A stretch of 35,795 nucleotides of DNA from an uncultured Parabacteroides sp. (GTDB lineage Bacteria > Bacteroidota > Bacteroidia > Bacteroidales > Tannerellaceae): assembly GCA_947036995.1 (NCBI GenBank), contig CAMQTD010000008.1, positions 1-35,795 on the forward strand, in the 5' to 3' direction. The notes beneath the pieces are model-generated. The model did not search any database. It saw only the letters and a program-made list of their open reading frames with translations, and had not been told where the DNA came from. Position numbers and translations under genes: made by a program. Shown one piece after another: positions 6,579 through 9,166 of this stretch; the first letter of the stretch is position 1; each line of letters starts with the position of its first letter.

Positions 6579-7046
6579 TTATTCTGCAACAACAACTGCA
6601 TCGTCTGCAGCAGTCTCAACATCAGCTTTTTTCTTAGAACGTCTTGCTCTAGTAGCTTTTGGTGCAACAGTTTCTTTAGCCATATTGTCGTTGAAATCAA
6701 CCAATTCGATGAAACACATTGCTGCGTTATCACCAAGACGATGACCAGTTTTGATTATTCTTGTATAACCACCTGGACGATCACCAATTTTTTGTGCGAT
6801 CTCTTGGAACAATTCTGTTACTGCATACTTATCTTGCAATGTGCTAAATACAATTCTTCTTGAACTTGTAGAGTCGTCTTTTGATCTTGTGATCAAAGGC
6901 TCGATAAATTTGCGAAGCGCTTTAGCTTTAGCTGTAGTAGTAAAAATTCTCTTGTGCTGAATTAAAGAAGATGCCATGTTAGAAAGCATCGCAGCACGGT
7001 GAGTATTAGTACGACCTAAATGATTGAATTTTTTATTATGTCTCAT
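6579..7046 (-). CDS. rplQ: 50S ribosomal protein bL17
   Basis: 155 aa. The N-terminal about 120 residues are the conserved bL17 core ([17 protein letters not shown] at the start, [18 protein letters not shown] towards its end). A tail of about 35 residues follows, first Lys/Arg-rich and then Ala/Asp/Val-rich and acidic; the E. coli protein (127 aa) lacks it, and I believe such extensions are common in Bacteroidota. The protein sits near the polypeptide exit tunnel. The gene starts 4 nt after rpoA and is the last of the supercluster, just before the terminator. Confidence 0.97.
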
Positions 7047-7050
7047 AGGT

Positions 7051-8043
7051 TTACTCTTTGTCTAATTTATATTTCGTGATATCCATACCGAATGATAGAT
7101 TTAGATTTTCTAGCAATTCATCTAACTCAGTGAGTGATTTCTTACCAAAATTTCTAAACTTCAATAAGTCATTTTTATTGAATTTAACCAATTCTCCTAA
7201 TGTTTCAACATCAGCTGCTTTCAAACAATTCAATGCTCTTACAGATAGATCCATATCAGATAATTTGCTCTTAAGCAATTGTCTCATATGAAGAACTTCC
7301 TCATCAAACTCCTCATTGCCATCTACATCAACAGTTTCAATTGCAATTTTCTCATCAGAGAAAAGCATGAAGTGGTGAATTAAGATTTTTGCAGCTTCTT
7401 TTAAAGCCTCTTTAGGATGAATAGATCCGTCAGTAGTAATATCAAGAATCAATTTTTCGTAGTCAGTCTTTTGCTCAACTCTAAAATTCTCAACAGTGAA
7501 TTTAACATTACGAATTGGAGTAAAGATAGAATCAACAGCAATTACTTGAAGATCTGCATTCGCATCTCTATTTTCGTCAGCTGGAACATAACCTCTACCT
7601 TTGTCGATTGTTAATTCAATTTGGAAACTACTGTTAGCATCCAAATGACAAACTACTAACTCAGGATTCAATACTTCAAACCCGGTTAATTGATTATTAA
7701 TATCGCCAGCTTTGAACACTTCGGAACCCGAAACAGTAATACTTACTTTTTCACTCTCAATATCGTCTACAATATGTTTAAATCTTACTTGTTTAAGATT
7801 TAAAATAATGTTAGTTACATCTTCAATAACTCCAGCAATTGTACCAAATTCATGGTCAACACCTTCGATCTTTACAGAAGTAATAGCAAAACCATCTAAA
7901 GACGAAAGAAGAATACGGCGCAAAGCATTACCTACTGTAATGCCATAACCAGGTTCCAGCGGACGAAACTCAAACTTACCAAAGAAGTTATCCGCTTCTA
8001 TCATTAATACTTTATCGGGCTTTTGAAATGCTAATATCGCCAT
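7051..8043 (-). CDS. rpoA: RNA polymerase alpha subunit
   Basis: 330 aa, full length. The alpha-NTD (about 1-230) has the assembly motifs [20 protein letters not shown] and the [13 protein letters not shown] helix. The alpha-CTD (about 250-330) shows [19 protein letters not shown] and [19 protein letters not shown], the DNA- and activator-binding fold; the Arg of SVRALN corresponds to E. coli R265. The alpha dimer nucleates core polymerase and binds upstream DNA. The position between rpsD and rplQ is the standard alpha-operon order. The initiation codon lies 11 nt after the rpsD stop. Confidence 0.98.
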
Positions 8044-8054
8044 GGAATCAATTA

Positions 8055-8660
8055 TTATTTAGAATACAATTCTACGATTAACTGCTCTTTAATGCTTTCA
8101 GGAATGTCAACTCTTTCTGGTACGTGAATTAACTTACCAGTTGAAGAAGCTTGATCCCACTCTATCCAAGGGTACTTACTGTGATTAAATCCAGCTAATG
8201 CATCAGCAATAATTTCAAGAGATTTAGATTTCTCTCTTACTGCGATGATTTGACCAGGCTTAACTGCATAAGAAGGAATGTTTACAACCTTACCATCAAC
8301 AGTGATGTGACGGTGAGAAACAAGCTGACGAGCTGCAGATCTAGTAGGTGCAATACCTAAACGATAAACAACATTATCTAAACGCATTTCTAACAATTGT
8401 AATAAAACCTCACCAGTAATACCTTTATGACGAGATGCTTTCTCGAACATATTTCTAAATTGTTTCTCTAATACACCATAAGTGTATTTAGCTTTTTGCT
8501 TCTCACGAAGCTGGGTGCCGTATTCAGAAGTTTTCTTCTTTCTAGCGTTTCCGTGTTGTCCTGGAGGATAATTCTTTTTCAAAAGAACTTTATCTGCTCC
8601 AAAAATAGCTTCACCAAATTTTCTAGCAATTCTGCTCTTTGGTCCTGTATATCTAGCCAT
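8055..8660 (-). CDS. rpsD: 30S ribosomal protein uS4
   Basis: 201 aa. It begins [17 protein letters not shown] and lacks the N-terminal zinc-binding cysteines, so it is the zinc-independent (C-) type. The S4 RNA-binding domain is at about 90-155 ([29 protein letters not shown]). uS4 is a primary 16S rRNA binder that starts 30S assembly. In E. coli it represses the alpha operon and in Bacillus its own gene. Here a 116-nt structured gap precedes it, whereas other gaps in the alpha operon are much shorter, which suggests separate control. Confidence 0.97.
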
Positions 8661-8776
8661 ATTTTAATAATTTAATTTTCTATTTAAACCAACCCCGTGC
8701 AGGAACGATTGATGAGATGATTACGAATAATCAACTCACAATCATTGATTCAATGATAAAAGAATGATTAGTAATT
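8661..8776 (-). promoter_or_regulatory. Structured leader before rpsD; candidate uS4-responsive RNA element
   Basis: In the transcribed direction the first hairpin is ATCATTGAATCAATGAT (8757-8741; 7 pairs, 3-base loop). It shares three bases with a second, larger hairpin (8743-8707) with helices of 5, 4 and 6 pairs separated by single bulged or mismatched bases and capped by a UUCG tetraloop. Downstream is an unpaired CCTGCACGGGG-type stretch and an A/T-rich run into the rpsD ATG. No TAnnTTTG promoter is visible. Being the longest gap inside the alpha operon and directly before the family's usual autoregulator, it is a good r-protein leader candidate. The two hairpins may stack or compete. 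Confidence 0.6.
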
Positions 8777-9166
8777 TTATACTCTTCTCTTCTTAGGAGG
8801 ACGACAACCGTTGTGTGGAAGTGGAGTAACATCTACAATTTCAGTTACTTCAATACCTGCACCGTGAATAGTCCTGATAGCTGACTCACGACCATTACCT
8901 GGTCCTTTAACATACACTTTAACTTTTCTAAGTCCAAGATCAAATGCTACTTTAGCACAATCTTGAGCTGCCATTTGAGCAGCATAAGGTGTATTCTTTT
9001 TCGAACTTCTAAAACCCATCTTACCAGCAGAAGACCAGCTGATCACTTGACCTTCGCTGTTTGCTAGAGAGATAATAATATTGTTGAACGATGAATGGAT
9101 ATGAGCTTGTCCGTAAGCGTCTACCTTTACATTTCTTTTTTTCGTTGCGACTGATTTCTTTGCCAT
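8777..9166 (-). CDS. rpsK: 30S ribosomal protein uS11
   Basis: 129 aa, full length. It shows [16 protein letters not shown] near the N-terminus, the conserved [20 protein letters not shown] block, and the basic C-terminal tail [16 protein letters not shown] that contacts 16S rRNA on the 30S platform. The gene lies 11 nt downstream of rpsM; after it comes the 116-nt gap before rpsD. Confidence 0.98.

Follow-up and report, generated by a model that had tools for sequence, protein, structure and literature searches.

In Escherichia coli (Gammaproteobacteria), ribosomal protein uS4 autoregulates the alpha operon via a structure in the mRNA, and the element described here would, by analogy, likewise be a control RNA of the uS4 type on the alpha operon. 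The S4 leaders of Bacillus (Firmicutes) and Fusobacteriales, which carry GUAA, resemble it in their known or predicted uS4 ligand but have another scaffold, described as imitating rRNA. According to Eckert and Weinberg (2020; PMC7247131), the E. coli leader is structurally unrelated to that of Firmicutes and dissimilar to a motif from Bacteroidia, whose ligand uS4 was assigned by analogy and is thus a prediction. Their Table 1 gives rpsD, rpoA, and rplQ as the genes regulated by this motif. The S4 leader of Flavobacteria in the same paper shares with our element the phylum, the downstream genes, and a hairpin, but its authors do not regard it as meaningfully similar to the Bacteroidia motif. 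The literature searched yielded no published experiment on the binding of uS4 to the motif from Bacteroidia. The motif corresponds to the S4-Bacteroidia leader of Rfam (RF03139), the uS4 leader motif for Bacteroidia that the preliminary description of this DNA had correctly mentioned as proposed.

The window, i.e., the whole stretch of 35.8 kb that was analyzed, contains an alpha operon with ordinary gene order (rpsM, rpsK, rpsD, rpoA, rplQ) on the minus strand. The gap between rpsK (8777-9166) and rpsD (8055-8660) measures 116 nt (8661-8776) and is indeed, as claimed earlier, the longest in the operon; the other gaps have about 4 nt (rpoA-rplQ), 11 nt (rpsD-rpoA and rpsM-rpsK), and about 33 nt (rpmJ-rpsM). 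The gap contains no intrinsic terminator, and promoter-like sites occur there at chance level. The 116 nt have no convincing duplicate within the same genome, and a search for near copies in 393 genomes of the order returned only short, low-complexity matches. The assembly is fragmented (226 contigs, 80% complete), so that the gap may contain a local sequencing error; the genes flanking it are intact. The genus is sampled by this one genome only.

The comparison with Rfam suggested in the preliminary description gave a divided result. In 80 of the 125 genomes of Tannerellaceae, the family of the window, RF03139 scores above its gathering cut-off (34.7 bits), and the matches inspected are located just upstream of rpsD. 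By contrast, RF03139 does not match the window at the gathering cut-off or at E<=10, nor does it exceed the cut-off anywhere in the genome. The Rfam set of 4227 families yielded no match in the window to any of its models for the S4 leaders of E. coli, Bacillus, Fusobacteriales, Clostridia, and Flavobacteria, as far as the set includes them; at E<=10, there were only chance matches to snoRNAs, miRNAs, and viral families, and nothing relevant.

The affiliation of the element is evident from its relatives. Alignment A1 comprises 28 leaders from the family and its near neighbors, with the window left out. Its consensus has 22 pairs in three helices, P1 (7 pairs), P2 (8), and P3 (7), the last of which is the Rfam hairpin. 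In A1, 91.6% of the cells are paired (84.2% in shuffles), two-sided changes occur at 14 of the 22 pairs, and none of 500 shuffles reaches any of the five measures; slid controls pair at 27-47%. The GUG/CAC of P2 is the best conserved part. Covariance model R1, built from A1 and therefore free of the window, has a single match in the 35.8 kb, on the minus strand directly upstream of rpsD in the block rpsD-rpoA-rplQ (first feature below); without filters, the second-best local score in the window is 7.8 bits. Since R1 gives about 20 to 71 bits for core-retaining leaders of other Bacteroidales, the window falls inside the range of the family. The features are as follows:

8671-8767, minus strand: complete leader element, a homologue of the S4-Bacteroidia leader plus flanking helices (R1, 37.7 bits, E=4e-8)
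8747-8753, minus strand: 5' strand of P1, UUGAAUC; pairs with 8684-8690 (7 of 7 pairs); helix covaries in relatives
8684-8690, minus strand: 3' strand of P1, GGUUUAA; 7 of 7 pairs; 23 nt before the rpsD start codon
8737-8741, minus strand: 5' strand of P2, UUGUG, with the invariant G of GUG; 6 of 8 P2 pairs in register
8695-8699, minus strand: 3' strand of P2, CACGG; covariation in relatives and 6 of 8 pairs in register
8726-8732, minus strand: ancestral position of P3, 5' strand GAUUAUU (GAUUgCA in relatives); 5 of 7 pairs in register
8707-8713, minus strand: ancestral position of P3, 3' strand AUCAAUC (UGcAAUC in relatives), from the R1 match
8718-8733, minus strand: apical hairpin UGAUUA-UUCG-UAAUCA, specific to the window; in minimum-energy and centroid folds
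8714-8719, minus strand: position of the conserved CCUCUC loop, CAUCUC in the window, from the R1 alignment
8700-8708, minus strand: position of the invariant core UCGCGGCUG, UCGUUCCUG in the window; three changes at 8703-8705
8741-8757, minus strand: hairpin 1 of the preliminary description (7 pairs); alternative to P1, absent from the minimum-energy fold and from relatives
8707-8743, minus strand: hairpin 2 of the preliminary description (15 pairs); alternative pairing in place of P2 and the ancestral P3
8055-8660, minus strand: rpsD (uS4), presumed regulated gene and source of the ligand; the protein was also used to find relatives
7051-8043, minus strand: rpoA, further downstream in this operon; identified by sequence and gene order
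6579-7046, minus strand: rplQ, downstream in the same operon; identity from gene order

Because a model built without the window matches it at E=4e-8, the element is a homologue of a known leader and not an independent solution, and the earlier idea that this phylum had found a third, independent uS4 solution fails. Judging from its sequence, the element is a divergent homologue of the published leader. The earlier reading as a uS4 leader thus stands insofar as the element belongs to this leader lineage; its independence and the conservation of the pairings drawn do not.

The resemblance to RF03139 comprises the position in front of rpsD-rpoA-rplQ, a sequence and fold recognizable over 98 model positions, the GAUU and AAUCG of the P3 stem, and the GUGA and CUGCAC flanks. 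The outer helices are largely intact, with 7 of 7 pairs in P1 and 6 of 8 in P2, including the GUG/CAC end. The differences, besides a score below the Rfam threshold, lie further inward. The 7-bp hairpin GAUUgCA/UGcAAUC of RF03139 is broken in the window, where two mismatches leave 5 of 7 pairs, and has probably been replaced by the UUCG hairpin UGAUUA-UUCG-UAAUCA, which was not found in relatives and provides the GAUU strand of P3 with a nearer partner. Instead of the unpaired CGCGGCUG that follows the hairpin of RF03139 and the CCUCUC loop, the window has CGUUCCUG and CAUCUC. The core is invariant in all 28 aligned relatives and altered only in the window, where GCGGCUG has become GUUCCUG. 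Altogether, the window departs from the relatives at 4 of 16 invariant columns (one in P3, three in the core); in a leave-one-out test, each of the other sequences has two such departures at most. Among the nine changes at columns conserved at >=90%, eight fall on model positions 41-65 (P3 and apex, loop, and core), a clustering unlike uniform decay.

Both hairpins of the preliminary description can form in the transcribed strand as drawn. Hairpin 1 has seven pairs (AUCAUUG/CAAUGAU, 8757-8741, -4.3 kcal/mol), hairpin 2 has 5+4+6=15 pairs and a UUCG loop (GAUUG+UGAG+UGAUUA / UAAUCA+CUCA+CAAUC, 8743-8707, -14.5 kcal/mol), and three bases are common to both. However, they are not the structure conserved in relatives, where strong covariation backs P1, P2, and P3 instead; hairpin 1 overlaps the 5' strand of P1, and P2 and P3 are replaced by the two lower helices of hairpin 2. 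In the minimum-energy fold of the window RNA, hairpin 2 is enclosed by a long outer helix, UUGAAUCAAU/GUUGGUUUAA, and hairpin 1 is absent. As the first GAUUG is able to pair with the old AAUC strand, hairpin 2 is predicted to be more stable than the conserved register, for which P1 and P2 with the new apical hairpin reach -7.5 kcal/mol. The folding energy of the gap is -23.1 kcal/mol on the minus strand; 4 of 200 dinucleotide shuffles are as good (z -2.43; z -3.2 in a second shuffle run), and the z-score is within the range of the family's leaders. Compared with shuffles of its own sequence, the plus strand is nearly as well folded (-18.0 kcal/mol, z -1.73), so that the strand bias previously put forward as a sign of selection on RNA carries little weight.

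The rpsK-rpsD gaps of the family fall almost entirely into two classes, with mostly 102-127 nt and GCGGCUG or 15-63 nt and no leader. The gap of the window is long but lacks GCGGCUG, and is alone in this among the long gaps recognizable as S4-Bacteroidia leaders. Long gaps without GCGGCUG exist in the wider Bacteroidales (L027, L030, L060, and L070) but are not recognizable members of the leader family, as R1 does not match them. In a tree of uS11 and uS4, the window is located among leader-bearing Bacteroidales, in a part without resolution; the change in the window is therefore most simply seen as derived. The Tannerellaceae with a gap of 15-63 nt and no leader are L016, L020, L023, L024, L115-L122, and L124-L130. 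Their scattered distribution on the tree suggests repeated loss of the leader in this family.

The element is thus either a rewired uS4 leader that still works, which we favor, or a leader caught early in its loss. On balance, the gap probably represents a lineage-specific, rewired, and still functional descendant of the S4-Bacteroidia leader, because length, P1, P2, and folding stability are retained; the gap also has the same place and size as the leaders of relatives. The changes at 4 of 16 invariant columns, read from the sequence and accompanied by no compensating change in uS4, count against a working leader, as does the lower predicted stability of the conserved register relative to the alternative hairpin. 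Decay is a real option, since the leader is missing from many Tannerellaceae, and its apparently repeated loss in the family keeps the margin modest. If the uS4-binding core had been lost recently, the gap would be drifting toward the short gap of other Tannerellaceae, and the remaining hairpins would have no regulatory role. This is a serious contender, though the less probable one: the invariant core GCGGCUG is gone only here among recognizable leaders, leaderless genomes with gaps of 15-63 nt occur at several separate places on the tree, and uS4 is unchanged at conserved sites apart from two conservative substitutions (V150I and L178I). It accords poorly with the full length of the element, with its complete P1 and mostly retained P2, with a folding z-score typical of the family, and with changes that are clustered rather than spread; moreover, after long neglect at a divergence of about 9% or more in the uS4 protein, the element should have become unrecognizable.

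Two further explanations deserve less weight than either a rewired or a decaying leader. The RNA might still regulate but respond to another ribosomal protein, an RNase, or the translation machinery instead of uS4. The ligand of the family is only predicted (PMC7247131) and the window has lost the invariant core, both of which leave room for such a change, but positive evidence is lacking and the gene order is ordinary, and we consider it improbable. That the gap is an A+T-rich spacer with unrelated chance hairpins, or contains a repeat or terminator, is very improbable. Although the folding z-score by itself reaches only about -2.4, this explanation conflicts with the R1 match at E=4e-8 and with the lack of a terminator or a convincing second copy, and is already refuted as far as homology is concerned.

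If the favored reading of a rewired, working leader is correct, uS4 in excess of free 16S rRNA would, by analogy, bind the leader element in the mRNA. The outer stem, bound or stabilized 23 nt before the start codon of rpsD, might then hinder the loading of 30S subunits on the A+T-rich initiation region, which would lower the output of uS4 and possibly also of the downstream genes rpoA and rplQ. Control at the level of translation is preferred, since the gap has no intrinsic terminator. According to PMC9976891, ribosomes of Bacteroidia do not recognize Shine-Dalgarno sequences, which makes masking of such a sequence unlikely; together with the lack of a terminator and the distance of the P1 base from the start codon, this leaves interference with 30S loading as the simplest route. 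With the core lost, recognition in the window must have shifted or been lost; in a working leader, the outer stems, the new apex, and the GUGA and CUGCAC strands would have to serve for recognition in place of GCGGCUG. That one lineage of Tannerellaceae exchanged the invariant recognition core and the apical stem for a new hairpin while both outer scaffold and function were kept is a tentative and rather doubtful proposition. If true, it would mean that the site recognized by the protein in a conserved leader has been swapped in nature.

Since the leader family is already published, the finding is modest in itself and, apart from one peculiarity, largely known biology. Nevertheless, a member that lacks the invariant core is a natural experiment on the part of the leader recognized by uS4, and may show such a leader in the course of being lost. 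One partial core was encountered outside the leader family: the gap of L027, from a distant family of the order, is leader-like and contains CCUCUUACCGCGGC in an otherwise different sequence that R1 does not match. The family core CGCGGCUGC is complementary over 9 nt to the 530 loop of 16S rRNA (GCAGCCGCG; 16S from L145); this is likely a chance match, because about 10% of shuffled cores match over the same length and the window lacks the match. The 16S gene of the window genome was not found in its assembly.

RF03139 models only the 34-nt hairpin (P3) and the core, and the covarying structure is far larger, with 15 further pairs in P1 and P2; the short model overlooks diverged members such as the leader in the window. 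When 20 of the more distant, core-retaining leaders of other Bacteroidales were aligned to R1, two-sided changes appeared at 20 of the 22 pairs, in an alignment that leans towards structure. With MAFFT alone, 15 distant leaders recovered P3 but not P1 and P2, whose support at this distance comes from the model-fitted alignment. Across Bacteroidales, there is covariation in the flanking helix of P1 and P2, with up to 15 pairs (A1 columns 19-35 with 80-96; A3), by which the Rfam model could be extended.
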